Below the pieces are notes generated by a model, which saw only the letters and a program-made list of their open reading frames with translations, did no database searches and had not been told where the DNA came from. From Pseudomonadota bacterium (lineage in GTDB: Bacteria; Bdellovibrionota; Bacteriovoracia; Bacteriovoracales; Bacteriovoracaceae), in contig JAIYDC010000028.1 of NCBI GenBank assembly GCA_027487685.1, positions 1-40,457 on the forward strand: a DNA stretch of 40,457 nt. Reading direction: 5' to 3'. The position numbers and the translations under genes are program-made. Shown here in pieces: positions 1-23,884 of this stretch (positions are counted from its first letter, which is position 1; the number at the start of each line of letters is the position of its first letter).

Positions 1-60
1 CCCTATCTCGGCGGCCGCGGCAACATTTGTAACGAGGAGGCCTATAAGGAAGAATTTCAT
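1..60 (-). CDS. start of an exported protein, cut by the window edge
   Basis: Only the first 20 codons are visible. They read MKFFLIGLLVTNVAAAAEIG, a short signal peptide with a hydrophobic core and an Ala-rich cleavage region. The ATG at 60-58 overlaps the TGA of the upstream membrane-protein gene (59-57) in an ATGA arrangement, the same translational coupling seen at other junctions in this operon. A GAGAG ribosome site lies just upstream. It is therefore probably the fifth gene of the polysaccharide operon and acts outside the cytoplasm. Its function cannot be told from this fragment. Confidence 0.6.
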   Translation of the reverse strand, partial: MKFFLIGLLVTNVAAAAEIG

Positions 61-4193: not shown

Positions 4194-5959
4194 TTGAACT
4201 TTTTCCCAAGCGCAAGGAAGGCAAGAGTGAGGGCCACCCAGGCAAGCCCAAGAAGAAGGTAGCGCCATTCTTCAAGGAAGGTTAAAAACGAGGGCCCCTT
4301 ACCATGGCGCGCGACTCGCTCTCGAAGTTCTCGAGTCGCCCCAAGGGCCTCCATTCGCTCCGCTCCAAAAGCAAGTAGGTCGTGGTGATCGGGGGAGAAG
4401 CCCGGTGCCCGAGTCACAAAGGGCCCTCCGAAGGCCTCAACCGTAAGGGTTGGAGTTTCATCCTCGAGGCCCGCAGTCACAAGAGTTACTCTCCGCAGAT
4501 TGGAAACGGAAAGCTTCCGGGAAGCCAGAAACTGAAGCACGACGGGATCAGTAGTCTTGGGTTGAAGAAGGCGGATTCTGCGAGGCGCAGATCCTTCGGT
4601 GGACGAAAAGCGAATGCGGTCGACGTTCAGGTCAAAGGACTTCCGGAGCCAGGCGAGCTGGTGGAGCCAGCGCAGATCAATGGCGGAGGTCTTAGGCACA
4701 ATAACCTCAAGGTCCGTATCGACTCGGGCAAAACCAACGAAGTCCGCACCGGTTTCTGTCGGCGCTGCGTACTCCAACGCCGAGTCCTCCAGGAGCCTCA
4801 GGTCGAAGTTCCTACCGTAGTCTTGGCCACACTTGCCGGCCAGGTCGTTGCGGCGCACCTCAAGCCGAAGGGTACTAGGCCATTCCGGCAGCCGCTCTGG
4901 CAAAAGCACCTGGTGGTACTGAGGAAGTTCGGAGTCGAGAAGGGAGATCACCCGCAGAAGTTCTTCTCCGAGGTAGACGTATAGAGCGGCCGGGCGTTGG
5001 CCGAAGCTCGGTGCTGTAGTGAGAGACAGGTGAAGTTTAGTAGGTGTCTCCGTGCGGCCAGGAAGTTTAGGAAGGTTCACTGACCAGCTGCGGCCACTGG
5101 CCGTGGGTTCACCCGTCGCAGAGAGTCCTAGTTCGTTTCTCGCGAGCCAGGTCCTGGGCACATCATCTGAGAGTGTTAGGGATGGCATCAACCTTGCCTG
5201 AAAAAGACCTCCGATGTCACCTAGAAAAGGAGCGGCACTAAACGAAGCCTTCAGAGGAACGTTGAGGGTGTGAGTGCCGTTGGTGGTGCGTAGTTCGATT
5301 TCTGATCCAGAATCAGTGAGGGTGATCTCGGCCTCCGCTAGAGGTGCTACAAATTCGACGCGCCCACCGGTGCTTTGGACGATCGTTATGAGTTGGAGAA
5401 GAAGTTTCATTGTTTCGGGCGATCGGTCGGCAGGAACGGCTATCCGTACGACTTGTGGAAGAGTTAAGAAAAAGTCTTCTACAGTGAGTTCCGAATCATT
5501 AAGGACCAATTCGAGGGCAGTGCGCTCAGTCACCCGAACTAGGCCCTCACCGAGCCGCTGGTCGAGACAGGGATCTTCTGAGACAATGTTAACGAATTGG
5601 AAATCGAAGCGACCGTACTTTGCGGCAAGAGAAGTCTTTGGCAAAGGTAGGGTCAGCGAAGTTTTAACGAATTCAGACCCGTCGGTGCCTTTGAGTGGAA
5701 CTTGCGCCAAGGGAACTCCCTCTAAAAAAACCTTAACCATGGATGGCGATTTCAGGAGAGGAGAACTTTCGAGGTCAAGCTTAAGGGCAGCGGAGGAGAT
5801 CCTACCGGGCGAGGGCAACCGCAAGTAGACGGATGCCGTTGATTTTCCTTCCCGAGAGATCAGACCGTTGGGATAGCCTTTTTGTGCAAGAGATTGAGTG
5901 TGCGTCACGGCAAAGCACAAGGTCGGCGCGAGCAAAGCCAGCAGCAGAAAGGACTTCAT
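4190..5959 (-). CDS. BcsB-like periplasmic subunit of a polysaccharide synthase
   Basis: A 589-residue protein with a signal peptide (MKSFLLLALLAPTLCFA) and a single C-terminal membrane helix (about 565-586) followed by GKKFK. This is the topology of BcsB, the periplasmic partner of cellulose synthase. The body is beta-rich with repeated carbohydrate-binding-like segments and two Cys-containing patches (EDPCLDQRLG near 130 and GKCGQDYGRNFDLRLL near 375), as in BcsB-type proteins. The start is set by ATG 5957-5959 with AGGAG five bases upstream and a sigma70-type promoter. It is the first gene of the operon and overlaps the next. Its likely role is to guide the glycan across the periplasm from the GT2 synthase. 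Similarity is at fold and layout level, so the polymer need not be cellulose. Confidence 0.78.
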   Translation of the reverse strand: MKSFLLLALLAPTLCFAVTHTQSLAQKGYPNGLISREGKSTASVYLRLPSPGRISSAALKLDLESSPLLKSPSMVKVFLEGVPLAQVPLKGTDGSEFVKTSLTLPLPKTSLAAKYGRFDFQFVNIVSEDPCLDQRLGEGLVRVTERTALELVLNDSELTVEDFFLTLPQVVRIAVPADRSPETMKLLLQLITIVQSTGGRVEFVAPLAEAEITLTDSGSEIELRTTNGTHTLNVPLKASFSAAPFLGDIGGLFQARLMPSLTLSDDVPRTWLARNELGLSATGEPTASGRSWSVNLPKLPGRTETPTKLHLSLTTAPSFGQRPAALYVYLGEELLRVISLLDSELPQYHQVLLPERLPEWPSTLRLEVRRNDLAGKCGQDYGRNFDLRLLEDSALEYAAPTETGADFVGFARVDTDLEVIVPKTSAIDLRWLHQLAWLRKSFDLNVDRIRFSSTEGSAPRRIRLLQPKTTDPVVLQFLASRKLSVSNLRRVTLVTAGLEDETPTLTVEAFGGPFVTRAPGFSPDHHDLLAFGAERMEALGATRELRERVARHGKGPSFLTFLEEWRYLLLGLAWVALTLAFLALGKKFK

Positions 5960-8702: not shown

Positions 8703-9698
8703 TTGACGACTCTGGCCATCATAGGTAGTGGGATCGCGGGGAGGAGTCTTGTTTACTCTCTTGCTCGGGAGGGTAAGCTTCTGGAGAAAATTGTTCTTTT
8801 TTCCTCCGACCATATCACTTCTCCATGTACTTTTAATTCCACCGCGGTAGCAGCTCCCAGAGGAGTTACCAAAGGTCACTCCGCACTCGGGGATCTCTTG
8901 GTTGAGGGACTGGCAGAACTCACAGAGCATGTCAGGACCGATCGGCCTTTGGGCGTGACGGCCATAACCCAGTACAACGCTGCAATGGAAAATCTTGACG
9001 TCTTCTCGAAACGCTTCCCGAGGGGGACGGAGTCCAGGGAATTTTTCCGCGCGGCAACCTATACCGCTGAGGAACCTGCTTTCCTCTTCGACACCCGCGC
9101 CTATGGAGATTGGCTCCTCTCCTATGCACGGGCCTTCTATGGGACTCGGCTAGAAGAGGTTTCAGAGCTTGTGACAGGTATTCGGAATACTTCTCCTGTA
9201 GGTCTCACCACACTTCAGGGGCGAGTGGACTCTTTTGACCGTGTCGTCTTTGCTGGAGGCGCCTACAACCGCTTCTGGAAGTCTCTGGCACCTGATACGG
9301 AACTTGCGACTTCGCGACCGGTACAGGGGAGCTACCTCGAGTATCAAAACGTATCCTGGGATCGCCCCTCATTTTCTCTTACTATCGAAGGAGATACGAT
9401 CGTCTGGAACCGCGCCCTACGTCGTCTGTTCGTCGGCTCTACGACCGAGGAACTCGGGCACCTTTTTCCTCCGCTAGGAGATCTGCGTTCCATGCACCAA
9501 CGTTTGGTTTCACGGGTCGTGCTTCCTCTGCCGAGTTTTGAAGAGGGTCTCATCAGGGTCGGCCTGCGGGAGAAGGCCAAGCGTCGTGCCCCCTATCTTG
9601 TCGAGCGAGGTGGGCTAGTCTTTATGGGAGGCCTCTATAAAAATGCCTTTACGGTGTCGCTGAAGATCTCCAGGGCCCTCGCTCGTCAGCTCCCTTAG
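8703..9698 (+). CDS. FAD-dependent oxidoreductase, DAO family
   Basis: A 331-residue protein that opens with a Rossmann FAD/NAD-binding motif, LAIIGSGIAGRSLVYSL (GxGxxG). A second flavin-site segment lies in the middle (FDRVVFAGGAYNRFW), and the C-terminal region (GLVFMGGLYKNAFTVSLKIS) resembles the closing FAD-contact segment of D-amino-acid-oxidase-like enzymes. The likely start is TTG at 8703, six to seven bases after AAAGGA; no ATG lies before the GxGxxG motif. Substrate cannot be told. It is divergent from tex and its last 50 bases overlap the convergent pyroglutamyl-peptidase-like gene. Confidence 0.8.
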   Translation: MTTLAIIGSGIAGRSLVYSLAREGKLLEKIVLFSSDHITSPCTFNSTAVAAPRGVTKGHSALGDLLVEGLAELTEHVRTDRPLGVTAITQYNAAMENLDVFSKRFPRGTESREFFRAATYTAEEPAFLFDTRAYGDWLLSYARAFYGTRLEEVSELVTGIRNTSPVGLTTLQGRVDSFDRVVFAGGAYNRFWKSLAPDTELATSRPVQGSYLEYQNVSWDRPSFSLTIEGDTIVWNRALRRLFVGSTTEELGHLFPPLGDLRSMHQRLVSRVVLPLPSFEEGLIRVGLREKAKRRAPYLVERGGLVFMGGLYKNAFTVSLKISRALARQLP

Positions 9699-10431
9699 CT
9701 CGCTTGTAAAACTCTGAAAGACACCCATCCTCTCGGTGGCGCTCACGGAGAATCTGAAGATCTATCTTCCGAACTGGAAGCCGTGCAGAAGCTTCGGTGG
9801 CGGCAGCAGCGGCGATCATTTTTTCCAAGGCCACAATACTTTCCTCGTTCTTCCGATCAAGATTCCGACAGTCATTGGACGGCACGTGGATGAAACCAAA
9901 GCGCTGTTCGGGATAGCGCCAGGCATACTGGTAGGCCACGTTGTTACACACAAAGCTTCCAGCATCGTTAGAAACAAAGACCATCCGGCGCTCCCTGGGT
10001 GAGAGCGCGCAGTACATTTGTGCCAGTGGATAGCGAAGGCCTAGTTCCTGTGGGCCATCTGGATTGATGGGACTCGACTTCCGCATCACTCCGCTATTGT
10101 CCGGACCGAACGAGTGGTCAAGGTTTCTTCCCATGATCTCGGCCTTAAGGTTACAGCCTGTTTCTCCGAGACCTAGCACCAGCGATGGAACGGAGGGAAG
10201 CGAGCGTACGCAATCCTCGATTTGCCCGAAGGAGCGCTCAAAAACCGTCTCGAGTCCACAGAGCTGAACTGTGACTTCTGGGTTATTCCGGAAGCGGGCC
10301 TCCAGCGCTCGGGCGACTCGTTCTGAGTTGTTAAAGGAGGCACCACCAAAGGCGTCGAAAAAGCTCACGACCACCAGGGATTTAGCGTCTACCGTTGCTG
10401 AGAATAGAAGCATCAGAAAAACCATATTCAT
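9649..10431 (-). CDS. exported pyroglutamyl-peptidase-like (C15) cysteine peptidase
   Basis: A 260-residue protein whose body matches pyrrolidone-carboxylate peptidases, which remove N-terminal pyroglutamate. It has VSFFDAFGGASFNNSERVA (family SGFEPFGG..NPS), GLGETG with Glu90, VSNDAGSFVCNNVAYQ with nucleophile Cys162, and GFIHVPS with His182. All three catalytic residues are present. A hydrophobic N terminus ending in an Ala-containing site (MNMVFLMLLFSATVDAKS) looks like a signal peptide, whereas family enzymes are usually cytoplasmic. The C-terminal tail of about 50 residues is extra and Arg/Lys rich. The gene overlaps the 3' end of the convergent FAD oxidoreductase by 50 bases. Confidence 0.85.
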   Translation of the reverse strand: MNMVFLMLLFSATVDAKSLVVVSFFDAFGGASFNNSERVARALEARFRNNPEVTVQLCGLETVFERSFGQIEDCVRSLPSVPSLVLGLGETGCNLKAEIMGRNLDHSFGPDNSGVMRKSSPINPDGPQELGLRYPLAQMYCALSPRERRMVFVSNDAGSFVCNNVAYQYAWRYPEQRFGFIHVPSNDCRNLDRKNEESIVALEKMIAAAAATEASARLPVRKIDLQILRERHREDGCLSEFYKRAKGADERGPWRSSATP

Positions 10432-10572
10432 GGACTGTTCTTCTCACCTTTTCAGATTCTAAGAAAGAGTATGCGGAATTTTTTTCCACCTGCCGATGAG
10501 CACCTAAAGACACATCAACTTGGAATTTAGGAACCGATGAGATCAATATCCACTCTAACCAAAGGATGGCCT

Positions 10573-11238
10573 ATGAAAAAATGGGTTTTTTCTATGGCAC
10601 TTTTTGCAACCTTGGGTCTCCATGATACACAATCCCAGCTCATGCTCTCGCATGACCACAGTCCTCCTCCTGGGCTTTTCGTATCGGGAGACTCGCAGTA
10701 CCTGGATCCAGCGTCGATCGAAACCCGCGTTCTACGGGTGCAGGGGATGCAGATCGAGGGCTTTTCTGGGGCCTCTCTACAAAAGCTCCAGGCCGCTTTC
10801 GTTGTACTTGAAGAGGCGGTAAACACTGAGGAATTTAAGGAACGCGTACTCAATTTTAAGAACTCTAAAGGCCAGCGTGCTTTCGCTTCCAACAAGGGTC
10901 TGACGAACGAACAGATCTATGAGCAGTTCATGGAAGGCCGCGAGACACTTCAGCCAGAGACCGTCGGTGAGATGAATTTCTACCTTCGACTCTACCACCG
11001 CCGGTGGTCCAGAGTAATCGGTTTTACTTCGGCGACAACGAATACGATAAGTATCAATTGGCGCTTCTTCCGAAATTATGAACCGGCCGATGTCGCGGCC
11101 AATCTCGCCCACGAATGGACCCATAAATTGGGATTTGATCACCGGTCGGCCAGTGAATACGATTCTGCCCCTTATGCCATTGGGTATATCGCGGGAGACA
11201 TTGCCAGGAAACTCAGGTCAAAGTCCCTTCACGAATAA
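10573..11238 (+). CDS. exported zincin metallopeptidase-like protein with HExxHxxGxxH
   Basis: A 221-residue protein with an N-terminal signal-like segment (MKKWVFSMALFATLGL) and one clear motif, HEWTHKLGFDH at about residues 180-190. This is the extended HExxHxxGxxH zinc site of metzincins: three His ligands and the catalytic Glu. The helix leading into it (ADVAANLAHEWTH) is typical. I see no classic Met-turn; YDSAPYAIGYI occupies the expected region. The start is ATG 10573 after AAAGGATGG. The gene is convergent with the second transglutaminase gene, only two bases separating the stop codons. Likely an extracytoplasmic peptidase; the substrate is unknown. Confidence 0.72.
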   Translation: MKKWVFSMALFATLGLHDTQSQLMLSHDHSPPPGLFVSGDSQYLDPASIETRVLRVQGMQIEGFSGASLQKLQAAFVVLEEAVNTEEFKERVLNFKNSKGQRAFASNKGLTNEQIYEQFMEGRETLQPETVGEMNFYLRLYHRRWSRVIGFTSATTNTISINWRFFRNYEPADVAANLAHEWTHKLGFDHRSASEYDSAPYAIGYIAGDIARKLRSKSLHE

Positions 11239-11240
11239 GA

Positions 11241-12467
11241 TTATTTAGAGAGCTCGAACAGTCGCTCCACCACCCGTGAAAGCGGCTGTCCTCTTTTAGC
11301 CGAGATTTTCGAGAGTTCTACCGTTGAGGTGGAGACGCCTCTCTTTTCGGCATCCGAGAGCGGATAAGTTCGGTCATTCGGCGCCCAGATGAAGTCCGGC
11401 AGATTCTTTGAGAATGACTCACCCCGGAGGATGTTATTGCGGGAGTCGAGCTCAAGATCGTAGACATAGCTCTTCGTCAAAACCTTATCCATTAAGGGAC
11501 CATCGGTGTCACTGAGATTCGCTTCCCGCATGTCCCGGAAGTTCACGGTGAGCTTCACTCCCACAATGAAAGCTGTCTGCGGATGCCGGCGGCCAGGTCT
11601 GGCAAAGCGGCTTTTCTTATCGAACGATTCCTTTACTGCTTCGAAGTCTTGAGACTCCTCATCATCGAAGACGTTATAGTAAGTCACCTGATAGCTCTCG
11701 ACGGGATAATTCCAGACTTCTCCACCGGGAGAAACATCGGCGATGAAGGTTTTCTTGAGCTTCCCGACACGGGTCATAAGAGCACGGTGAAAGGTTCCTG
11801 GATTGGTTTCATCACAGGCGCCAGTGAACGTGCCAATTACTGGTCGGCAGCGTTTTCCGATGAAGATAACCGGCCCCTGAGAGCGGGCGTACATCTGTGA
11901 ACCCAAGGCTTTGATGTCTTCCGGGAAGAAAGTCAGTGATAGACCCTTTGGTGTGACAAGAGTGACGCTCTTGCGAGGTCTAGGCATCTTTTGGGAGGCG
12001 GAGGCCCAGCCGTCGCAAAGACCACGCCAGGTCTTCACATTTCCATTCAGGTTGCCTTTTTCTCCGAGCTCCCAGGCGTATTTTGTGAGGGTCATTTCTT
12101 CATCACCGACCAAGAGGTCGTACTTCTCTGCGGGTGAAAGTTCGTTCTCACGGCCGGTAAAACTATAGAGAGGAAGTTTCAAATAGAGCTCATGGTGCTT
12201 GTCCCACTGGGCTTTCCCTTCCAGGAGGAGTCTCAGTTCCGGTGCTCGGTAGCGGACACCAAGGGATCCCTGGTACGTAGGCCAGTATGATCCAGACCAT
12301 AAGTCTAAGTTCGTTTGTCCTCTATCAAGGCCCAGCCTCGCTGCTTCGGTAAGGGAGCGGATTTCCCTCTGACCTTCAAACAGAGGAGTCGGGTCCTCTT
12401 CGGTCTTGGCCGTCTGCCCAAAGGCAGCGGCAGAGGCGAGGGCCGTGAGTAGTACTAGCGTTTTCAT
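11241..12467 (-). CDS. exported elicitor-type transglutaminase, shorter paralog
   Basis: A 408-residue protein with a signal peptide (MKTLVLLTALASAAAFGQ). It is homologous to its upstream neighbour: both have GxYWPxYQG, SPAEKYDLLVGD-like, C-x-GWA, FFPEDIKAL, TFHRALMTRVG and FIADVSPG blocks in the same order. The likely Cys-His-Asp triad is Cys151 (GLCDGWASA), His227 (PGTFHRAL) and Asp244 (FIADVS). The CxGW block and block order match the transglutaminase-elicitor family described from Phytophthora and vibrios, enzymes that form glutamyl-lysine isopeptide bonds. It follows the longer paralog by six bases and is surely co-transcribed. Substrates would be extracytoplasmic. Family assignment is from motif memory and is good but not certain. 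Confidence 0.75.
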   Translation of the reverse strand: MKTLVLLTALASAAAFGQTAKTEEDPTPLFEGQREIRSLTEAARLGLDRGQTNLDLWSGSYWPTYQGSLGVRYRAPELRLLLEGKAQWDKHHELYLKLPLYSFTGRENELSPAEKYDLLVGDEEMTLTKYAWELGEKGNLNGNVKTWRGLCDGWASASQKMPRPRKSVTLVTPKGLSLTFFPEDIKALGSQMYARSQGPVIFIGKRCRPVIGTFTGACDETNPGTFHRALMTRVGKLKKTFIADVSPGGEVWNYPVESYQVTYYNVFDDEESQDFEAVKESFDKKSRFARPGRRHPQTAFIVGVKLTVNFRDMREANLSDTDGPLMDKVLTKSYVYDLELDSRNNILRGESFSKNLPDFIWAPNDRTYPLSDAEKRGVSTSTVELSKISAKRGQPLSRVVERLFELSK

Positions 12468-12473
12468 CAGATC

Positions 12474-14147
12474 CTACCTTCGCGACTCGTTCAGGAGTGT
12501 TTCAATAACGTTGATCAGCGGCTGCGGACGTGGGTAGCGGAATTCGCACTCGACCATGATGGGTGCTCCTCCGTTTTCAGGGAACACTGGGCACATCGGA
12601 GAGACACCCCAGTAGCGCTTGGATTCCTCATAAACGAAGCTGTGTGCGCCTCGAGCGGCCGGCGCAAAGTCTCTTGGAGGAAGAGTACTGCGAGAAAAGT
12701 TCCATGTCGGGAGAGAGAGTGGCCTGAAGTATTCTTTCCAGTCCCGTGGGACTACCCAGAAAAAGTCCGGCTGGTTGGTCTTGGTATTGATCACCCCCGG
12801 CCCCCCTTTGCGGGCCACGCGCCACTGGCCTCCGACCACTTTCCCACGCCAGTCTAGCTCGAGGTCATAGGTAAAGCTGAAGTCGGAGATCTTGTCATCC
12901 GCCGGGCCGTTAACTTCGGCCTTCCTTGCATATTCCCAATCGACATACTTGAGTTTGACTTCGACACCCACGATGTGAGTAGCCTCTGTATTTCTCGAGT
13001 TCCGGAATGGATCCTTATCGCCGTAGACAGAGCGGGAAAGTACAGACTGGGCGAGGGGGCCCTCTTTTCCGGTCCTCGGGTTAAAGTAGTAGAGTTCATA
13101 CCCAGAGACCGGCTGATTCGCGATCGCGGCTTCGGCAGTTTTATCCACCACGAAGCTTCTGCCCTCGATCCCGAGAATGTTGATCAGGGAAACATGGAAA
13201 ATTCCAGGGTGAACGTCCGCGCAGCGTGGGAGAAGAGTCACGTCATCACGATCTTTAACTAAGTCGATGTAGCGGCCGTTACTATCTTTGTCTGGATTTT
13301 TCTTATTGCAACGGTTTCCTTCGAAGATCACGTTTGATTGGAGTGTGGAGTTCGCCCACATAAGCGAGATAAGGGCCTTGATGTCATTCGGGTAGAATGG
13401 CATCCGTTTGCCATTAGGAAGAGTGACAGTGACGGTACGCTCAGGTCGTGGAGTGTGTCCTGCTGCGACTGCCCAGCCGTGGCAGATGCCTTCCCAAAGC
13501 GCCATTCTTTTATTCACGCTAGGAATGCGGTGGCCATCTGGAAGATTGATTGCCGAAAGGAAACCCCATTTCTTCTCATTCCCCCACTTCTCGGCATAGG
13601 CCCATACTTTGTTGGTAAGATCGAAGCTGGTGTCCCCTAGGAGAATGTCATACTTTTCAGAGGGTGCAAGCTTAGCCAGTGCCTCTTCATCGAGCTGGTA
13701 TATTTGAGGATGCACCTTCTCTGCGCGCTTCTTATAGTCACTTACGTTTTTCTTCCAATCGAGGTTGCGGCGAATTGAGAAGATAAATGTATCAAGATCT
13801 TTGTCTTGATACGTATTCCCAACCATACCCTGGTACAGAGGCCAGTAAGGCCCACCCCAGGGCTGAATTTTAGTATTGGCACGATTTAGGCCCCGCCGCT
13901 CCATCTCAAAAACGTTGGAGAGGTAGTTTTCACCTTCATTGAGTGCGGTGAGACGGGCCTTAATATGGTCCGTTGAGTAGGGTTTGAAAGGGTAAATTGA
14001 CTTGTTCGGTTCACTCACTCTGCCGGGATCCTTGCAATCCTGAGTCTCCTCGTCACAGTCGTCCTGATCAGCAACCATCTGGGCGTGTCCATGGCCCGAG
14101 AGGACGGCGAGAGTCAGGGACATCATGAGATAGTGCTTGGTCTTCAT
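12474..14147 (-). CDS. exported elicitor-type transglutaminase, longer paralog
   Basis: A 557-residue protein with a signal peptide (MKTKHYLMMSLTLAVLSGHGHAQ) followed by an acidic Cys-containing linker (DQDDCDEETQDCKD). The catalytic region carries Cys222 (WEGICHGWAVAAGH), His318 (HPGIFHVSL) and Asp335 (SFVVDKT), in the same block order as the downstream paralog. It has extra loops, including a Cys-rich insert near 280-310, and an extra C-terminal region of about 100 residues (WKEYFRPLSLPTWNF onward). The start ATG at 14147 has a strong ACGGAGG site. Likely role: cross-linking proteins or peptides in the envelope or outside the cell. It is separated from the barrel gene upstream by a hairpin and is probably its own transcription unit with the second paralog. 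Confidence 0.76.
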   Translation of the reverse strand: MKTKHYLMMSLTLAVLSGHGHAQMVADQDDCDEETQDCKDPGRVSEPNKSIYPFKPYSTDHIKARLTALNEGENYLSNVFEMERRGLNRANTKIQPWGGPYWPLYQGMVGNTYQDKDLDTFIFSIRRNLDWKKNVSDYKKRAEKVHPQIYQLDEEALAKLAPSEKYDILLGDTSFDLTNKVWAYAEKWGNEKKWGFLSAINLPDGHRIPSVNKRMALWEGICHGWAVAAGHTPRPERTVTVTLPNGKRMPFYPNDIKALISLMWANSTLQSNVIFEGNRCNKKNPDKDSNGRYIDLVKDRDDVTLLPRCADVHPGIFHVSLINILGIEGRSFVVDKTAEAAIANQPVSGYELYYFNPRTGKEGPLAQSVLSRSVYGDKDPFRNSRNTEATHIVGVEVKLKYVDWEYARKAEVNGPADDKISDFSFTYDLELDWRGKVVGGQWRVARKGGPGVINTKTNQPDFFWVVPRDWKEYFRPLSLPTWNFSRSTLPPRDFAPAARGAHSFVYEESKRYWGVSPMCPVFPENGGAPIMVECEFRYPRPQPLINVIETLLNESRR

Positions 14148-14329: not shown

Positions 14330-15352
14330 CTAGAAGCGCAGGGTAAGGTCGGCACCGAGGGCGCTGGTCTCCGGTCTAAACTTCAGCAGCGTCTGGGTGA
14401 AAAGCCCCACGGATTTCAGAAAACGGATTTTCTGAGGGAAGTAACTTAAGGTCAAGCGAGCGCGGTCTGAGAGGTTGTTATTGAAGTCCTGCGAACTCGA
14501 TTGAACACCCCGCTGATCCCAGTCGAAGGTGACGACGGATCCGAGCATCCAGCGGTCACTGAAGCGGTAGTTCAGGTAGGGACCTCCGGAGACGATCATG
14601 GTCTGAAGCGGCGTCGGTCTTCCGCCGAATTCCACCGGGAAAGGAGGTGCTTTGACGTTGTTTTGGTAATACATCCGATAGATCTGGCCCATGAGACCTG
14701 CGCTCCAGCTGACACTTGGGAGGTTGAATGCAAAAGACTGGGCCACAACCCAGGCCCAGCGCATTTCGTCATCTTTTGAGATGTTGGATGTGGGGTGCTC
14801 ATAGGAGAGTGTTGTGTAGAGTGTGCCGAAGGACAGGGACAGCGAGGGTATGTTGACGTAGGCCCGAGCATTGAAGAAGAGCCAGTCTGAGGTATTGGTA
14901 TAGACTTCCCCTCGGTCGTTTTCGTTCCTGACTTCTCGGGTGTAGCCATTGACCGCAGAAAGGGTCGTGCCGATGGCCCAATCCTCGGTAATCTGGTGGC
15001 GGAGATTTAAGGCATGGAAGGATTGCAGCGGGGCACGTCCGGTCCCTGGAGAGTCAATGCCCTCTTGGAAGACGTTGTAGGTCTCGGATCCTGATCCCAC
15101 TGGGGTTGGACCCAGAAACTGCTGGTAATAGGAAAGGGAGGTGTTCTCCAGAAGCCGACGTCCCAGGTCTTTCTTTGGCATCGAGCGCAGGAGGATTTGT
15201 CCCGGGGTGTTCTGATTCTGACTCTGGTAGCTGCCTTGATTATTAACCTGGGCAAAGACCGGGTCGTTTGAGCTTTGAGCGCAGACAGTGCCGGCCGAAA
15301 GGGCACCAACGGCGAAGAGCAAGGTCCGAAGGTTGAAGACTCTAGTGATCAT
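14330..15352 (-). CDS. outer-membrane beta-barrel protein in the ATP-grasp operon
   Basis: A 340-residue protein with a signal peptide (LLFAVGALSAGTVCAQ) and a body of alternating amphipathic strands rich in Tyr, Trp and Phe (ARAYVNIPSLSLSFGTLY, GPYLNYRFSDRWMLGSVV). It ends LTLRF; the terminal aromatic residue is the classical outer-membrane barrel insertion signal. An N-terminal periplasmic stretch (about 25-75) is rich in Gln and Asn. The start overlaps the upstream stop by four bases (ATGA). Likely a 10-14-strand porin or transporter. Its fixed place in this operon suggests it moves or anchors something made or processed by the cluster, which is inference. Confidence 0.8.
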   Translation of the reverse strand: MITRVFNLRTLLFAVGALSAGTVCAQSSNDPVFAQVNNQGSYQSQNQNTPGQILLRSMPKKDLGRRLLENTSLSYYQQFLGPTPVGSGSETYNVFQEGIDSPGTGRAPLQSFHALNLRHQITEDWAIGTTLSAVNGYTREVRNENDRGEVYTNTSDWLFFNARAYVNIPSLSLSFGTLYTTLSYEHPTSNISKDDEMRWAWVVAQSFAFNLPSVSWSAGLMGQIYRMYYQNNVKAPPFPVEFGGRPTPLQTMIVSGGPYLNYRFSDRWMLGSVVTFDWDQRGVQSSSQDFNNNLSDRARLTLSYFPQKIRFLKSVGLFTQTLLKFRPETSALGADLTLRF

Positions 15353-17568
15353 AGTTTGGTCCCGGCCGTATTTTTGTTCGCGGCAATGTTGAGGTTGTCG
15401 AGCTTCTCACGGTCGGAGAGAAATTCTTTAAGGTTATCGATGACGATCATCCGCTGGCTGGATTCGATATCCTTGCCCAGCCGATTCTTGATCTCTTCGC
15501 GGATTCCCACATATTCGAGGGTCAAATTGTGGAGAAGAGTTTCGTAGAGCAAAGAAACTTTAGTGCGAGCTAACACCTCGGTCGGAGTCAAGAGCTGGCC
15601 CGAAATGTCGCGCTTGAGAAGGAGGGCGAGTTCCTCTCGTTTGGCCGAATACACGGACTGGAGTACCCAGACGGTATTTCGGACGGACCAGATGTACATA
15701 TTAAGGCCCATGTTTGAGGCCTCTTCTGCCTTCGAATTCTGAAGGAAGAGGATCTCCCATTGCCGCTTCATGTAGCCACGGAACTCTTTGGTATCGAAGA
15801 CGTCTTTTTGTTTAAAAAGGTCGGAGTTGGCCACCAGATTGCGTAGAACAGTACCGGTTTCTTTTCTGTTCTTGGCATAGTGTTCTGCTAGGGCGCTGAT
15901 CCTCTCGTGGCCCGCAGGGCGCTTAAGGTTTTTGTAACGCCATGAAAGGATATTGGTCATCTCTTCCATGAAGACAAAGGCCCGACCTACATAATAGTCG
16001 TTTCGCTTTTGCTCCCGATCCTGATCGAGCATGACATAGATCTGGTCGAGAATGAAGCGTCCCATCCGGTCCCAAAGATAGAGCTGGAGCTGCTGGGTCC
16101 GATTGATCTCATTGAAGAGATACTGCTTCATCTTGGGAGAGAGATTGGGGTTCTCACCTCTAAGTTTAAAAATGGCCTGTGAGTAGCGCTCGAGTTCTTC
16201 CCAAGTGGCCTCGACCTGGATGGGAAAGTTGTACTGGGTCTCCAGCTGCTCGAGGCGTCCCATGCGTGAAGCGTATTCGATGTTCTCTTCGTAGGCGATT
16301 TGAAGCTGCTTAAAGTTACTCATCCGCTCGGCCCAGGTCGTTCTATTCACGGCTTCAGAATCCGTCGTTAGAAGCATATTCATGTGGGCCGGGGTTATCT
16401 GTTCGGTTGCGCCGTCTCCCAAGTTCACGACGTACGGTTTCGCGGCCCCCGTGGTCATAGGTGACTGGTAGATGATGTTTCCCAGAGGAAGCAATGGTTG
16501 AGTTGACGCTTGGGGGGCGGCCTGAGCTACGGACACAGTGTCTTTAACGAGGTCCGTGTTAACGGCGGCGATCGCCTGCTGAGATCCTAGGTCACTAGCG
16601 ATCTTGTCGGAACCTTCAAAGAGGCGACCCACTCCGGTTTTCGCCTCGAGATAGGCGGCACGAACTCGGCCCACCGCCTGCATGGCATGAGGATTCATCG
16701 GCATGGTAATGAAGTAGTAGGTAAAAGGGCCATAAACGGCAAGAGCAATCGAGTAGCCCAGATTGTTTCGGACCGTCTGAAAAAACCAGATGATCTTTCC
16801 GACAGTATACCGGTAGAAGAGACCATTGAAGTTATCTAACGGTCGTTCCACGAACCGGGCCAGGAAGCTCTCTGTATTGCGGAAGAGAAGACTAATTTTA
16901 AAGGCGAGTTTTGAGTAGCGATGAGCGCGGATCTTCGTTCCCATAATTTGGTCACGCTCTTTCCGGAGGTTTCCGAAAACAAGTTGCCGCTCTTCCCAGG
17001 TGAGTACGGGGTCAAGCTCCGCGGCGAGGATTTTATGGTAGACCGCTTTGATCGCTGAATCTTCCACTTTCTTTCGGATCGGAAGCTCAATCGTCGGAGA
17101 CCGGTCAAGTGAGCGCAGGAAATTCTCCACGCCGTGAACCAATGCGGTCTGGGAGCGCCCCTCAGCAGCATTCTTATATTCGAGAGAGAGGTAGTTATAG
17201 AGGTGGTTCAGGATTGGGCAGGAAAGATCCATCTCGTGGAAGTCAACGACCACGGCCTTAAGCGCTTCACGGTCGGCGGAGAAAGTAAGCCCACCCTTGA
17301 TATTGAAATAGTCATGCCGCTCTTGTGTCACCCCGTCCTGCCGAATAATCCGTTTCAAAACGTATCCAGTTCCTCCCAGAATGAGTCCCACCAGAAGCTG
17401 TCCCTCGATGCCGTCTTCATGGTATTCAAAACCACTCAGACCGTTCTGGAACTGAAGCCTTGAGACAGTGCCGTTGATCTCATAGCTGCGCTGCCCACCG
17501 TCCTGGAGAATTGTCTCCAGAAATGGCAGCAGCTCTTCAACGTCCGTAGTCAGGAATTCGTGCTTCAT
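15349..17568 (-). CDS. large helix-rich membrane-associated protein of unknown function
   Basis: A 739-residue protein I do not recognise. It starts at ATG 17568 (MKHEFLTTDVEELL) after AAGG; the frame is open further upstream but that part runs into the Gln-repeat end of the previous gene. The N-terminal third has a mixed alpha/beta region (to about 130). A hydrophobic segment near 275-300 (LGYSIALAVYGPFTYYFI) looks like one membrane helix or hairpin. A low-complexity Ala/Gln/Thr linker follows (about 330-390). The C-terminal half is long charged helices (about 430-720), possibly coiled coil. There is no signal peptide, so it probably spans the inner membrane between the cytoplasmic ATP-grasp protein and the outer-membrane barrel. 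It lies 13 bases after the ATP-grasp gene in the same operon. Confidence 0.7.
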   Translation of the reverse strand: MKHEFLTTDVEELLPFLETILQDGGQRSYEINGTVSRLQFQNGLSGFEYHEDGIEGQLLVGLILGGTGYVLKRIIRQDGVTQERHDYFNIKGGLTFSADREALKAVVVDFHEMDLSCPILNHLYNYLSLEYKNAAEGRSQTALVHGVENFLRSLDRSPTIELPIRKKVEDSAIKAVYHKILAAELDPVLTWEERQLVFGNLRKERDQIMGTKIRAHRYSKLAFKISLLFRNTESFLARFVERPLDNFNGLFYRYTVGKIIWFFQTVRNNLGYSIALAVYGPFTYYFITMPMNPHAMQAVGRVRAAYLEAKTGVGRLFEGSDKIASDLGSQQAIAAVNTDLVKDTVSVAQAAPQASTQPLLPLGNIIYQSPMTTGAAKPYVVNLGDGATEQITPAHMNMLLTTDSEAVNRTTWAERMSNFKQLQIAYEENIEYASRMGRLEQLETQYNFPIQVEATWEELERYSQAIFKLRGENPNLSPKMKQYLFNEINRTQQLQLYLWDRMGRFILDQIYVMLDQDREQKRNDYYVGRAFVFMEEMTNILSWRYKNLKRPAGHERISALAEHYAKNRKETGTVLRNLVANSDLFKQKDVFDTKEFRGYMKRQWEILFLQNSKAEEASNMGLNMYIWSVRNTVWVLQSVYSAKREELALLLKRDISGQLLTPTEVLARTKVSLLYETLLHNLTLEYVGIREEIKNRLGKDIESSQRMIVIDNLKEFLSDREKLDNLNIAANKNTAGTKL

Positions 17569-17581
17569 ACTTACCTTGCAG

Positions 17582-20500
17582 CTATTGCTGCTGTTGCTGT
17601 TGCGTCTGGTTGTAGCTGTTCCCAAGAGAGATCGTCGACAGGATCGGCCGTAGGGTAATCGACCGGTTAAGGTCGAGTTTCCGGGCGAAGCTTACACCAT
17701 AGAACTGATGGTTTCCGATTGCTGTCAAGGCCTCGTAGTCGGGACGGGCCTTGCGGATGGCGCGCTTGATCTTGGTCTCATTAAGTTTGATCTGTCTTCG
17801 GTTCGCCGAAGGAAGAGCAGAGCGGATCTCATCCCAACCGATCTCCAGGCCCAACTCCTTGGCGAAGGTGATGTTCTTGGCGTTCTCCAGTGCGGGAATA
17901 ACTTCCTGGAGTGCTTTGACCTTGACCTGGTTTGAGTTTGGCATCATGTAGCCAAAAAGCGAGCCATACTTGTCGAGGACGGCATCATAGTCTTCGCGGG
18001 AAGAATTGATGCCTGTGCGGATCTCAGTGATAAGGTCCGTTAAGAAATAGGGGACAATCCGATCGGCAAGACCATAGAGCGGCTGCCGCTCGACGGAGAT
18101 ATCCACGTTAAGGCCTTCAAGGCTGGCCGCGGAGACCCCGAGGAAGTTACCGTAGAAGTTCAGGAAGTACGCCTGGGCAATGGCGCCGTCTGAAAGGGCC
18201 TTGGCCTCCATCTTTGTCGTCTCTTCGATTTGATGATAATGGATGACCTCGTGGCCCGCGGTATAGATCTGTGTTAACGGATCAAGCTCTTTCCTGATCC
18301 AGATGAAAATGTCTGAATCAGAGAAAAGGCCGTGGGACTTTCGCTTCTTGGCAAAACACTCGCCGGCGTCCTCACGCGCAGATAGATGCGCTTCCCGGAT
18401 CTTTTTGGTTGAGAGGATTGAAATTTTGTTCGGTGTCAATTCATTGGTGAAGATCTCCTCGAGGGCGAGGCCTTGTTTCTTAGCAAACTGCTCGAGGTTA
18501 TACATAGCATAGGGCATGGCCGGCATGAGTTCGATCAGGTCTTTCACTCCGACCCGGCGAGAGTTCATGATTTCTGTCATGCGGGCAAGGAATGGGAACT
18601 CCTGGAAGTGAGCAGCGCGCTTTTGAGCGATGAAGGCCTCCCGGTCTCGGACCGGGAGTTTCTTGGCCTCTCCATCGACGGCGAGCCATGCCGCACGGGC
18701 CGCCCGAACATGGGATGGAATATAGTCCGATTCGGTCAGAAGCTCGCCGGTGGCGAACTCCCGCTGAGAGGCATTTGCAAAGCCCGTCGCCTTGGTAAGT
18801 GAGGCCTCCGAGAGGCCGAAGGTTTCAAACTTCAACTCCGGGTGGACCGCCTCTGGCGAGAAAAGCTTGGCAAACTCAATCGCTTTCTCAGAGTTCTGGA
18901 GGCGCTCCCGGACTGTAGACATAAACGCTTCAATGAGCTTCATCATGTTGCTGGCCGTTTTACCGGCGATGGATTCACGGCGGAACGAGGCTTCGATGGA
19001 ACTCCGAAGCACTGAGAGAAGAGCGTTGAATTCCTTTTGGAGCTTAACGTCTTCACCGGCACGGTCAATGAGTGCGGCCCTGAGGTCACGCAGGATCTTC
19101 CTATCATGCTTGCGATGTTCGGTAGTGTAGTTTTGGTAAACGATGTCTTGATCTAGGACCAGGAGCTCGTCCATCAGGTCGCGGAAATCCTTTGAGAGTC
19201 TGTTTTTTCCTTCGAGCTTGGCCAGCATTTGAACCAGCCGAAGCTGATTTGTGTTTATTTTTTCGAAGTAGGCAGAGATCTCGGTCTTCGCTTGCTTAGT
19301 CTCGAGGACGTCGATCACTTTGTAGATCGGCTCAATTGCACGCGGATTCAAAAACGAGAGGACTTCCCGGCATTGAGTCTTAAGTGAAAGAGTTAAGCCG
19401 AGGAGGGTATAGCTATCGGCGGTGCCATTCTTCAGGTGATTGTACATCTCCGAGGCAAGGCGGCCTACCTGAATCAGTTGGGCAGCGACGAACATTGGAA
19501 GGTGCGTCTGAAGAGGAACCGGGGCTTTGGGACGGATGAACTCTGCCGCACTCACGGCCTCAGGTGAACCCACGTCGTCGACCACGACGAACGGGGCGTA
19601 GCCGCCGCCTTTAGACGTATTGACGATCGAACTCATCGGTCCTTTCTCTTCCGGAGCGTATCGGACCAGAGCATTGTGAGTCATCTTCGGAAGTGCTTTT
19701 GCTCCGCCACCGTAAAAGACCCAAAGGCGAATATCGGCCGCGAGGTTAGCAAAACGTGATCCTTGCTTGTCCTTCATGGCCACAGGGATCCGCGCGATTT
19801 TAACGAGTTTTTGATAAGCGTAATGACCAGGGTTTTTCCGTATCATCTCCATCACGTCTTTCTTCTGGTTCTCGGAGAGAGTCTTCATGATGTAGATTCC
19901 GGATCCGCCGGAAAGATTCGGCGCTTTGATGACCCAATCTTCCATGTTCTTTTCGATGATTTTGACAGACTCGGCCTTTGGCGGAAGTGTATCCGGAGGA
20001 GTGATCTTGGGCCCATTGGTCTGTAGACCGAGCTCCCGCAGCTTCGGTGCGAAGAATTTCGGCGCGTAGGTGGTGAGGGCCGCCAAAATGATTTTGTTGT
20101 CGAGGATGCGGTTAAGGCCACCCATATAGATGCGCTTGCCGATGATGGCCTCCAGAAGACCTGGCACGGCGTAGTCGCTCTGGAGTGGGATGGGGTCTCC
20201 ATTCACGTCGAGAACTAGCGGAGCTTCTCCTTCCTGCCCGAGCTTGAGTGAATCCCGCAGGAAAATCGGCTCGTTCGTATCGGGATCCCGAAGGAAGATA
20301 CCTTTATCGATATCAAAAAGAGCAGAGTCGGCATTAATCCGAGAGTAGATGGCAGTGACAATCGGGTTTGAGCCGTTGATTGTACGCAGGCGGATGTAAC
20401 CCTTTTCATCTTGAAAGAGTTGGACCGGATCTGCGTAAACCAGACCCGAGTAGGCGGCAAGATTATGAATTTCCGGAGCGGCACCATTCATTCCCCCCGG

Positions 20501-21346
20501 TGGGAGTATGACCTGGATCCCGTCCTTGATGCTGGTCCAGTCCTCTCCAAGAGAGCGGTAGGTTTCGGCCAGCACAGAAAAGTGATCGTTCGGGAGTAGC
20601 CGACCTAAACTCTCGAGGACTTCAGGATTCTGCTCGTAGTGGCCCTCAAGCACGTTCATGTTGTTTGAGGCGCCGCTTGGTGCGCCGGCGTTAAGCTCAA
20701 GGATTCTGAACGGGAGCTGAGAAGGAAGCTTTTCGAATTTCTTGGATTTCAGGATCTTCTCGAAATTCTTCGATTGCTCAACATAGTCTTCGATCAATAC
20801 GAGGTCGAGTCCAACATTATCAAAGAAGGGATACTTCTTCATGTTCGGGTGATGGAGTTGAGGGAAGTAGTTTGGCGAATCGATGATGGCCTGGATAAAG
20901 ATATTCCGGATTTCCAACGGCAGAGATTTAACAAATGGTGAGTCTTTGACGGATTTGGCACCGTAGATATCCTGGATCACACAGCGGAGGGAGACGATGA
21001 GAGCTTGCGCTGCTTTTTCGATGGTATTAAAGACTGATTTCTGGAGGGGGACTATAGTCGTTGTGCATGGGACAGTGAAGATCTTATAGTTACCTTCTGA
21101 ATCAGACTTCTGAAACGTCAGGTCCCGTTTGCGGATGAACTTGGTAAGATTTTGCGACTCTTTAAGATGAACGGCGACCTCCCGTGAGAGAAGGTTTTTC
21201 ACTAGCCCACGAGAGTGGCTGTATGGCGCCCGTTTCCTTCGGGAGGAAAAGATATAGTTGGCGACATCGACTTTAACTGATCCGATGAAACCCTGGTTGG
21301 GGTTGTACGGACTGAGCTTCTTTCGAGCGTTTTTAACTTTAATCAC
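17582..21346 (-). CDS. circularly permuted ATP-grasp ligase fused to helical region and HExxH peptidase-like region
   Basis: A 1254-residue cytoplasmic protein. Residues about 130-600 match the circularly permuted ATP-grasp family (COG2308 type): ELNAGAPSGASNN (217-229), WVIKAPNLSGGSG (471-483, glycine-rich nucleotide loop), DIRLWVFYGG (538-547) and SSIVNTSKGGGYAP (572-585, the family VNSSxGGGSKD block). Such enzymes use ATP to form peptide or amide bonds. Residues about 610-850 are all helical and may be an alpha-E domain, the usual partner of these ligases. Near 1020-1070 lies LDPLTQIYTAGHEVIHYHQIEE with HExxH (1032-1036) and downstream acidic residues, as in a zinc peptidase. The protein ends in six Gln. 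GTG start at 21346 with GGAGAGG five bases upstream. It leads an operon with a membrane protein and an outer-membrane barrel. Confidence 0.8.
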   Translation of the reverse strand: MIKVKNARKKLSPYNPNQGFIGSVKVDVANYIFSSRRKRAPYSHSRGLVKNLLSREVAVHLKESQNLTKFIRKRDLTFQKSDSEGNYKIFTVPCTTTIVPLQKSVFNTIEKAAQALIVSLRCVIQDIYGAKSVKDSPFVKSLPLEIRNIFIQAIIDSPNYFPQLHHPNMKKYPFFDNVGLDLVLIEDYVEQSKNFEKILKSKKFEKLPSQLPFRILELNAGAPSGASNNMNVLEGHYEQNPEVLESLGRLLPNDHFSVLAETYRSLGEDWTSIKDGIQVILPPGGMNGAAPEIHNLAAYSGLVYADPVQLFQDEKGYIRLRTINGSNPIVTAIYSRINADSALFDIDKGIFLRDPDTNEPIFLRDSLKLGQEGEAPLVLDVNGDPIPLQSDYAVPGLLEAIIGKRIYMGGLNRILDNKIILAALTTYAPKFFAPKLRELGLQTNGPKITPPDTLPPKAESVKIIEKNMEDWVIKAPNLSGGSGIYIMKTLSENQKKDVMEMIRKNPGHYAYQKLVKIARIPVAMKDKQGSRFANLAADIRLWVFYGGGAKALPKMTHNALVRYAPEEKGPMSSIVNTSKGGGYAPFVVVDDVGSPEAVSAAEFIRPKAPVPLQTHLPMFVAAQLIQVGRLASEMYNHLKNGTADSYTLLGLTLSLKTQCREVLSFLNPRAIEPIYKVIDVLETKQAKTEISAYFEKINTNQLRLVQMLAKLEGKNRLSKDFRDLMDELLVLDQDIVYQNYTTEHRKHDRKILRDLRAALIDRAGEDVKLQKEFNALLSVLRSSIEASFRRESIAGKTASNMMKLIEAFMSTVRERLQNSEKAIEFAKLFSPEAVHPELKFETFGLSEASLTKATGFANASQREFATGELLTESDYIPSHVRAARAAWLAVDGEAKKLPVRDREAFIAQKRAAHFQEFPFLARMTEIMNSRRVGVKDLIELMPAMPYAMYNLEQFAKKQGLALEEIFTNELTPNKISILSTKKIREAHLSAREDAGECFAKKRKSHGLFSDSDIFIWIRKELDPLTQIYTAGHEVIHYHQIEETTKMEAKALSDGAIAQAYFLNFYGNFLGVSAASLEGLNVDISVERQPLYGLADRIVPYFLTDLITEIRTGINSSREDYDAVLDKYGSLFGYMMPNSNQVKVKALQEVIPALENAKNITFAKELGLEIGWDEIRSALPSANRRQIKLNETKIKRAIRKARPDYEALTAIGNHQFYGVSFARKLDLNRSITLRPILSTISLGNSYNQTQQQQQQ

Positions 21347-21674: not shown

Positions 21675-23111
21675 TTAAGAGCCATTTGCAGGAAACTTGA
21701 CCCTGAACAAGCTCCCCCTGGGTTGGAGATTCTCATGTCGTATGGTCGCGTTATGGATCTGTGCGATCTTAGCAGCAATGGATAGCCCAATTCCGCTCCC
21801 AGGGATCTGGCCTGTGCCGCGCCGGAACCGAGTCCCCACGATCTCTATAAAAGTATCGCCTGGTAGACCCGGACCCTCGTCCTTTATGCATACCTCTGTC
21901 TGACCTTGCGCCCGTTTAATGGCAATCTCAACGATGCTTTCATCCGGCGAGTACTTGATGGCGTTATCAAGCAGGTTTTCAAACACCGCATCCAAAAGTT
22001 GGCGCTCCGCCGGCACCTCGAGTTCCCCAGGGCCCAAGGCCTCATCTATATTGAAACGAATCGTTGTCCGCTTTTCCCGCGCCTTGGCCTGAAGCCGTGC
22101 TGACGTTGTCAGGAGGAGGTCATCGAGGCGAACCGGGTGGAAGATGACTGGGACAACGTCGGCCGAAACGCGAGAAACAAGGAGCATGTTCTTGACGAGC
22201 TCGATCAGCCGTTGAAGCTCCTCACGAAGGGAGAGGTGAAATCGCTTGATCTCTTGAGGTGAGCGTTCTTTGGCCTCCAGGACGTCAAGTTCACCCTTGA
22301 TGATGGCCAGGGGAGTGTTCAGTTGGTGGCTGGCGTTAGCAACAAAGTTCTCCTGAGCTTCGAAGGCCGTCTCGAGGCGCGCCAGAAGACTATTAAGCGT
22401 ATTAGTGAGTTCCTCTACTTCATCTCCCGTATCCACCATCGGAAGACGCAGGGAGAGATTCTGGGCCGCAATAGAGTTGGCGGTGTTACTTAATTGGCGG
22501 ATCGGCGCTAGGGCGTTTCCGGTGATCATAAATGAAATAAAGCTAGAACCCAGGATCATGATCGGGATCATGAAGACCGTTACCAGTAGATGATTCTTCT
22601 CTCGATCGAGGACTGAGTCAAAGGAGGTCGCTACTTGGAGGATCGCGGCTTTCCCCTGAATATTTGTGATCTTCATGTTCACGCCACGGTAGTTTACACC
22701 ATCACTTTCGAACGTTAGCAGACGGTGAGTATAATCCTGCTTGAGAGGAAGCTCCGGATCATAGGGAATCATCAGAAGGGGTGCTCCGGGGGCCCGCATG
22801 ATAACCTTTCCGGAAATGTCCCGGATGGCGTAGCGGGTTTGCTTAAGGATAAAGGGAAAGACTTTTTCAACCTCTGAGCGAGGCACCTCAATAGTCATCC
22901 CGGCCCCGGCCTTATCCACAGTGAGATGATCTGAAAGGTCGATGGCCAGGTTGATAAGATTTGAATCAAAATCGGCGCGTCCTGAATCAAAGTATTCTTT
23001 GGTGATGACATAGGAGAATACAACCAGGACCAGCCCGAAGAGGGTCGCGTAGACCAGAGTAAGGCGGAAGCGAATCCCTTTAAGGTGCTTATTCCAGCTT
23101 GTTGAGGACAT
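21675..23111 (-). CDS. sensor histidine kinase, OmpR-partner type
   Basis: A 478-residue inner-membrane kinase. It has a first membrane helix (about 14-36), a periplasmic sensor region (about 37-170), a second helix (VTVFMIPIMILGSSFISFMI), then a HAMP linker (APIRQLSNTANSIA). The dimerisation domain carries the phospho-acceptor His in ANASHQLNTPLAII, and the ATPase domain has the N box (DAVFENLLDNAIKYS), G1 (IKDEGPGLPGD) and G2 (GSGIGLSIAAKI) motifs. All catalytic motifs are intact. It overlaps the end of the response regulator gene by 23 bases and is co-transcribed with it. The stimulus is unknown. Confidence 0.95.
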   Translation of the reverse strand: MSSTSWNKHLKGIRFRLTLVYATLFGLVLVVFSYVITKEYFDSGRADFDSNLINLAIDLSDHLTVDKAGAGMTIEVPRSEVEKVFPFILKQTRYAIRDISGKVIMRAPGAPLLMIPYDPELPLKQDYTHRLLTFESDGVNYRGVNMKITNIQGKAAILQVATSFDSVLDREKNHLLVTVFMIPIMILGSSFISFMITGNALAPIRQLSNTANSIAAQNLSLRLPMVDTGDEVEELTNTLNSLLARLETAFEAQENFVANASHQLNTPLAIIKGELDVLEAKERSPQEIKRFHLSLREELQRLIELVKNMLLVSRVSADVVPVIFHPVRLDDLLLTTSARLQAKAREKRTTIRFNIDEALGPGELEVPAERQLLDAVFENLLDNAIKYSPDESIVEIAIKRAQGQTEVCIKDEGPGLPGDTFIEIVGTRFRRGTGQIPGSGIGLSIAAKIAQIHNATIRHENLQPRGSLFRVKFPANGS

Positions 23112-23763
23112 AGCCCTGGCCCACCACAGTCTTCAGGATTTTCTTTGGGAAAGGGACATCTATTTTTTTCCGGAGGTGGTTAACGTAGACGTCGATTACG
23201 TTTGAGTCTGGGTCGAAATCCGTCCCCCAGACCTGACGAGCGATTGCGTTTCGATCAAGCACTCGGTCCACGTTCCGGAGAAAGATCTCCAGAAGGGTAA
23301 ACTCCTTGGTTGTGAGATCAATGCGGATCCCTTCTCTTGTCACCCAGCGGCCTATAAGGTCCATAGTCACTTCACCGTTCTTGAGTTGGGCCTTGTCGTC
23401 GACTTTTCGGCGAAAAAGTGCCCGTACTCTGGCGAGAAGCTCTTCGAATTCGAAGGGCTTGGTCAGATAGTCATCGGCACCAGCGTCCAGACCCTGGATT
23501 TTGTCTTTGGTCGTTGAAAGGGCGGTGAGCATGAGGATGAACCCTCGATGACCCCCGATTCGGAGTTCTTTGGCGAAGTCCACTCCACTTTGGTCGGGGA
23601 GCATCACATCAAGAATCATCAGATCGAAGCGCTGAGTCTTCATGAGCTCCCGGGCCAACGCTGGGGACTCGGCCGTCTCAACCTGATAGCCCTCTTCACG
23701 GAGACCTTGTTGTATAAGTGCGGCGACTTTTTTTTCGTCTTCGACGACAAGGATATTAACCAT
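23089..23763 (-). CDS. OmpR/PhoB-family response regulator
   Basis: A 224-residue two-domain regulator. The receiver domain starts NILVVEDEKKVAALI, with the phospho-acceptor Asp in LMILDVMLPDQSG, the conserved Thr/Ser position (MLTALST) and Lys in DYLTKPFEFEELL. The winged-helix DNA-binding domain ends with NVIDVYVNHLRKKID and the wing segment KTVVGQGYVL. The start is ATG 23763 (MVNILVVED) with CGAGG upstream; an upstream extension lacks homology. It is the first gene of a two-gene operon with the histidine kinase, and its 220-base upstream region is shared with the divergent LysR-type gene. Confidence 0.95.
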   Translation of the reverse strand: MVNILVVEDEKKVAALIQQGLREEGYQVETAESPALARELMKTQRFDLMILDVMLPDQSGVDFAKELRIGGHRGFILMLTALSTTKDKIQGLDAGADDYLTKPFEFEELLARVRALFRRKVDDKAQLKNGEVTMDLIGRWVTREGIRIDLTTKEFTLLEIFLRNVDRVLDRNAIARQVWGTDFDPDSNVIDVYVNHLRKKIDVPFPKKILKTVVGQGYVLNKLE

Positions 23764-23884
23764 ACTAACCTCGCTGATGAAATCACACTTAAAATTAAGT
23801 TTTAGGAGTTTCCGTGTCAACGCCTATTGCTCTGAAGCTCCACTACAGGGAGCAAGTTAAATTTCATTCCTTTGCTTCAAAAAA

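Follow-up and report, generated by a model that had tools for sequence, protein, structure and literature searches.

The gene at positions 17582..21346 (minus strand) of the 40,457-nt window, the whole stretch of Bacteriovoracaceae DNA that was analyzed, encodes in one 1254-aa chain a predicted circularly permuted ATP-grasp region followed by a helical bundle, an HExxH domain and a glutamine tail. We interpret the product as a ligase-peptidase-like fusion of Bacteriovorax-group predatory bacteria, in which the HExxH part is probably a zinc-dependent cutting domain. Because the chemistry of ATP-grasp enzymes is established and is here joined to a putative zincin, we propose that the protein both builds and trims a peptide modification attached through an amide bond, a reading to which we assign a probability of roughly 0.5. 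A published description of this architecture was not found in the papers searched. A first-pass annotation of the window had proposed a single chain with a ligase, an alpha-E-like region and a zinc peptidase; the ligase was confirmed, the peptidase-like part is retained as probable only, and the alpha-E part was not recovered. That annotation made no mention of an obligate partner gene, an invariant glutamine C-terminus or an apparently exported sister clade, all of which are described below.

The fusion gene and its ATP-grasp half

The open reading frame begins with GTG, is preceded by a ribosome-binding site (ggagagg) and runs for 1254 codons, as expected of a genuine gene. V1, encoded by the GTG, is conserved among close homologs, and complete homologs in genomes of the phylum have open frames of 1216-1309 aa. 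The motifs on which the first-pass annotation was based were all found in this frame where it had placed them, with APSGASNN at residue 222, IKAPNLSGGSG at 473, DIRLWVFYGG at 538 and IVNTSKGGGYAP at 574, while the HExxH of GHEVIHYHQ corresponds to H1032-E1033-V-I-H1036.

Judged by sequence comparison, residues ~28-591 (19574..21265, minus strand) are a circularly permuted ATP-grasp, as had been claimed. The fusion protein exceeded the curated Pfam cut-offs for both CP_ATPgrasp_2 (PF14403; 1.1e-17, 64.5 bits vs. 32) and CP_ATPgrasp_1 (PF04174; 9.5e-10, 38.4 bits vs. 23.1). In addition, a profile of canonical COG2308 proteins, built from Bacteriovoracaceae (G125), Deinococcus and alpha-, beta- and gamma-proteobacterial plasmid proteins, matched the fusion family with 99.1% probability in hhalign (E 4e-19, 462 columns). 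The LELNAGxPSG, YSRxNxD and DNK motifs of the fusion family align with canonical LEDNxRxPSG, YRRIDDD and DDK, and the VIKAPNLSGGSG lysine, DxR and NTSKGGG align with VVKEVGGAGG, DLR and NSSQGGG. No active-site residue varies across the 42-member alignment of the fusion family, and the motifs occur in the permuted order. The sole confident sequence relative of the protein in the PDB was 3n6x (5.8e-7), which is annotated as a putative glutathionylspermidine synthase.

The C-terminal half and its known counterparts

The HExxH motif (18239..18253, minus strand) lies in a zincin-like core that we delimited at residues 975-1080 (18107..18424, minus strand), where AF2 predicts the strands ISIL, ECF and IFIWI and then a long helix bearing the motif. 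All 42 full-length homologs, including those with only ~39% identity, carry HExxH, compared with 0.035 per protein expected from composition, and we therefore consider that it is not a chance occurrence and is under selection. Invariant in the 42-member alignment are H1032, E1033, H1036, Q1039 and E1047, and likewise E1148 and E1154. E1047 (18206..18208, minus strand), which falls 11 residues past H1036 and on the same predicted helix in both AF2 models, is a possible third ligand on the basis of its conservation.

Profile and structure comparisons were consistent with this assignment to varying degrees. DUF6782 (PF20573), a putative metallopeptidase family, was the only Pfam family to match 23 of 23 members, with a best value of 4e-4 that is below its cut-off (15.9-17.2 bits for the fusion protein vs. 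27). As in the fusion protein, an HExxHxxQ follows a strand in DUF6782; however, in its clear member (L125) the glutamate of E-A-D-A is far downstream of HExxH, whereas E1047 is close to it. A profile of 13 HExxH proteins matched the fusion C-terminal region with 90.8% probability (E 1.2e-6), in a comparison biased toward a match because the set, nearly all of it picked by weak DUF6782 hits, was centered on HExxH. Five column-shuffled controls gave 0.5% or less, and masking the three motif residues left 2.8%, so that the match is mostly motif-dependent. When the HExxH domain was modeled alone (330 aa, AF2), the pLDDT was 63 and Foldseek returned nothing significant. VIA with the same model gave weak neighbors (Z ≤ 4.0), but among those on its short list are 1oz9, 7zoc (collagenase H), 5giv (M32), 1pwp, 3ce2, 3cqb (HtpX) and 4qhg (selecase), which are HExxH zinc enzymes. 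When the C-terminal profile was searched against PDB sequences, the only hits were chance matches to kinases. Given the conserved HExxH, the predicted strand pair before it and a set of weak structural neighbors rich in HExxH zinc enzymes, the modeled region is likely to have a zincin-type fold. The earlier description of the region as peptidase-like is probably right in view of the motif, the predicted strand pair with its helix and the profile match, tempered by the motif dependence of that match, the low Z scores and a third ligand that is only a candidate.

Alternatively, an active ATP-grasp ligase may carry a C-terminal half that acts as a substrate-recruiting, partner-binding scaffold; HExxH would then either bind a metal structurally or be the remnant of a decayed zincin devoid of hydrolase activity. 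We regard this as a possible but less likely explanation. The C-terminal half gave no significant structural match, E1047 shares the HExxH helix in both models, and HExxH is missing from a stand-alone relative (L093) and from several sister-clade proteins, all of which would be compatible with a scaffold; the catalytic glutamate E1033, however, is invariant in all 42 homologs, a constraint not expected of a site with a structural role only.

Between the ATP-grasp and the HExxH domain lies a helical region (residues 614-870; 18737..19507, minus strand). The AF2 model of residues 606-1254 (23-row alignment; mean pLDDT 82.8) contains a helical bundle at residues ~618-817 (model residues 13-212; pLDDT mostly 82-96), in agreement with the long helical region noted previously. 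Foldseek found no significant match to this 649-aa model, and VIA matches to model residues 9-221 were generic helix bundles (Z ≤ 9.0). The proposed relation to alpha-E did not survive: there was no Pfam match to Alpha-E (PF04168) anywhere in the host genome, and a profile-profile comparison (hhalign) of residues 606-870 with ten alpha-E proteins gave 0.2% probability. By eye, AAQLIQVGRLASE in the fusion protein resembles the alpha-E opening GELYWLGRHVERA of L106, a likeness unsupported by the profile comparison, and at the sequence level we rejected an alpha-E identity for residues 606-870. The two points on which the fusion claim had been made to hinge therefore came out differently, with an undetectable alpha-E relation and an HExxH probably situated within a zincin-type core. 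Across the phylum, alpha-E was found in 1 of 291 genomes (G125), within a canonical operon; this genome, from the same family as the host, has a three-gene operon of CP-ATP-grasp, alpha-E and transglutaminase (L106/L124).

PMC6376114 and PMC12239564 cite Iyer et al. (2009) for the CP-ATP-grasp/alpha-E/transglutaminase operon (COG2308). The fusion locus resembles it in having a homologous ATP-grasp with retained active-site motifs and, sometimes, transglutaminase genes nearby. It differs in lacking an alpha-E gene or detectable domain, in the transglutaminase family concerned (TGase_elicitor), in its fused HExxH region and in its obligate new partner. In LZK74_31380 of Sinorhizobium meliloti (802 aa), a single chain likewise carries a helical domain after the ATP-grasp, but there the helical domain is a recognizable alpha-E and there is no HExxH region. 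In Caballeronia, genes for a CP-ATP-grasp, an alpha-E protein, a "putative zinc-binding metallopeptidase" and a transglutaminase form an operon, so that ligase and metallopeptidase are encoded together, although as separate genes and with a peptidase that begins with a zinc ribbon and whose HExxH lies in another sequence context. RimK/RimB and RloC/RloA also pair an ATP-grasp ligase with a peptidase (PMC12239564), but these are separate proteins, the ligases are not circularly permuted COG2308 members and the peptidases are aspartic. The operon analogy drawn in the first-pass annotation was apt: the canonical operons in our data include one that adds a zinc metallopeptidase gene and another that contains an ATP-grasp-alpha-E fusion. 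Public records already contain both of these arrangements; for the present ligase-HExxH chain, the literature searched yielded no description.

These parallels might indicate that the protein is a divergent form of the canonical CP-ATP-grasp/alpha-E/metallopeptidase system condensed into one chain, in which the helical region is an alpha-E past sequence recognition and the whole protein does the same job as those operons. The helical region does directly follow the ATP-grasp, and the order is that of the Sinorhizobium fusion and of the Caballeronia operon with its zinc metallopeptidase gene. We nevertheless consider this unlikely, as neither Pfam nor profile-profile comparison gave an alpha-E signal, the transglutaminases nearby belong to another family and a long branch separates the protein from canonical ones in the tree.

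The chain ends in YNQTQQQQQQ (residues 1245-1254; 17585..17614, minus strand). All 42 full-length homologs terminate in QQ, mostly as YNQTQQ with a variable number of extra glutamines, and the variants YHQSQQ, YNSAQQQ and YNNIQQ all retain terminal glutamines. The coding pattern of the tail occurs once in the host genome, at the fusion gene. The glutamine run (17585-17602, minus strand) is encoded by CAA/CAG repeats and differs in length among close relatives, so its length may shift by slippage. A fixed C-terminus of this kind suggests that the tail is recognized or modified.

Partner gene, genomic context and distribution

The gene that follows (15349..17568, minus strand; ~739 aa) belongs to no Pfam family, and its ATG at 17568 is 13 bases past the fusion stop codon. 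The search for the same architecture in other genomes that had been suggested recovered the fusion gene in 58 of 369 genomes of the phylum. The partner is present in 58 of these 58 genomes and in 0 of the 311 others, co-occurrences that are not independent events because of shared ancestry. The two genes stay adjacent despite rearranged orientation (L055, L094, L095, L102-L105). A third cassette gene (14330..15352, minus strand), which overlaps the partner by 4 bases and usually comes next in relatives, encodes a 340-aa protein with a signal peptide and, by eye, an outer-membrane-barrel-like C-terminus. Beyond it are two genes for secreted transglutaminase-like proteins of the TGase_elicitor family (12474..14147 and 11241..12467, both minus strand; PF16683, 9.8e-36 and 6.5e-30, respectively). 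Of 26 loci, 12 had such genes close to the cassette and 14 lacked them, some loci being short, and their link to the cassette accordingly looks looser.

Several other genes of the window were noted. A small secreted protein (10537-11238, plus strand), found beside the transglutaminase genes in close relatives too, contains HEWTHKLGFDH, which fits the metzincin zinc consensus HExxHxxGxxH. A pyroglutamyl-peptidase-like gene (9649-10431, minus strand; PF01470, 4e-17) is retained near the cassette in the genus and is worth noting in the vicinity of glutamine tails and transglutaminases. Positions 57-5959 (minus strand) encode a BcsB-like protein, a family-2 glycosyltransferase and unknown proteins, possibly an exopolysaccharide locus. 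Immediately upstream, and in the same orientation in several relatives, is a two-component system (sensor kinase and OmpR-type regulator; 21675-23820, minus strand), a possible regulator of the cassette.

Fusion genes occur full-length in several families of the phylum, and the relatives include Bacteriovoracaceae, Halobacteriovoraceae and Oligoflexia. The C-terminal profile matched in 59 of the 369 genomes, comprising the 58 with the fusion and one (G353) with a stand-alone relative only. The latter (L093, 8678-9433, minus strand; 251 aa) has YELIY in place of HExxH and lies beside two TGase_elicitor genes, and we read it as an inactive free-standing copy. Phage records contained no match to the fusion protein, plasmid records yielded canonical ATP-grasps only (over residues 213-612), and a defense-system library gave nothing above chance.

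A PF14403 search revealed a sister clade of further long CP-ATP-grasps in the same phylum. A hydrophobic, signal-type N-terminus was found in 11 of the 12 sister-clade proteins in our tree (L149-L154, L156-L160; 782-1176 aa), with a peak N-terminal hydropathy of 1.9-3.3 vs. at most 1.4 in the fusion family, and these proteins are apparently exported ATP-dependent ligases. Five of the 12 (L149-L153) have an HExxH at residues 875-923, a position similar to that in the fusion family, and two of the three HExxH-containing sister lineages have glutamine-rich ends (QGTQQQQ, HIQSQQ). In a maximum-likelihood tree of ATP-grasp domains, which carried long-branch warnings, the sister clade and the fusion family were grouped (100/100) apart from canonical proteins. 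Given this grouping and the HExxH in both clades, a common ancestor of the two may already have had the ligase-HExxH fusion, which was then lost in some descendants. Alternatively, HExxH may have been gained independently in each, since the C-terminal halves are not alignable (no homology detected between the two by profile comparison, 2.6%).

Proposed activity and significance

ATP-grasp enzymes form an acyl phosphate and then an amide. From the presence and conservation of the domains, the co-occurrence with the partner and the conserved tail, which the data do show, we infer both activities of the fusion protein, its substrate and its envelope role as follows. The protein would be a cytosolic ligase-peptidase whose ATP-grasp half spends ATP on converting a carboxylate into an acyl phosphate and then couples it to an amine, so that a peptide or protein acquires an amide or isopeptide bond. 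The zincin-type half would hydrolyze peptide bonds in the same substrate, either exposing the acceptor or trimming or removing the modification. The glutamine tail could serve for docking or as a substrate, and either the enzyme itself or the transglutaminases encoded nearby might modify it. The product would probably serve an envelope assembly to which the partner (15349-17568) and the outer-membrane-like protein (14330-15352) also contribute. A more specific version, which we hold to be quite unlikely, is that the ATP-grasp adds residues to or through its own (or its partner's) glutamine-ended tail and the fused zincin trims them, with the exported sister clade running the same chemistry outside the predator cytosol, perhaps on prey ATP. 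It is improbable that the ATP-grasp half is a pseudo-ligase that forms no bond and in which nucleotide binding has only a switching or scaffolding role, leaving the peptidase, if active, as the working part: every active-site motif residue is retained, although the one canonical member studied in the literature searched, from an Anbu operon, is known only for the release of phosphate from ATP, with no ligase product reported (PMC6376114).

The biochemistry of CP-ATP-grasps in the literature searched is limited to that phosphate release by one member.

Operons encoding CP-ATP-grasps are widespread. With its strictly co-inherited partner and fixed glutamine terminus, a ligase-peptidase in one chain would offer handles on what this chemistry modifies, namely a tail for mass spectrometry, a partner for pull-down and two separable active sites. 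For the apparently exported sister clade, a further question is how ATP-dependent ligases could work outside the cytosol of a predatory bacterium.
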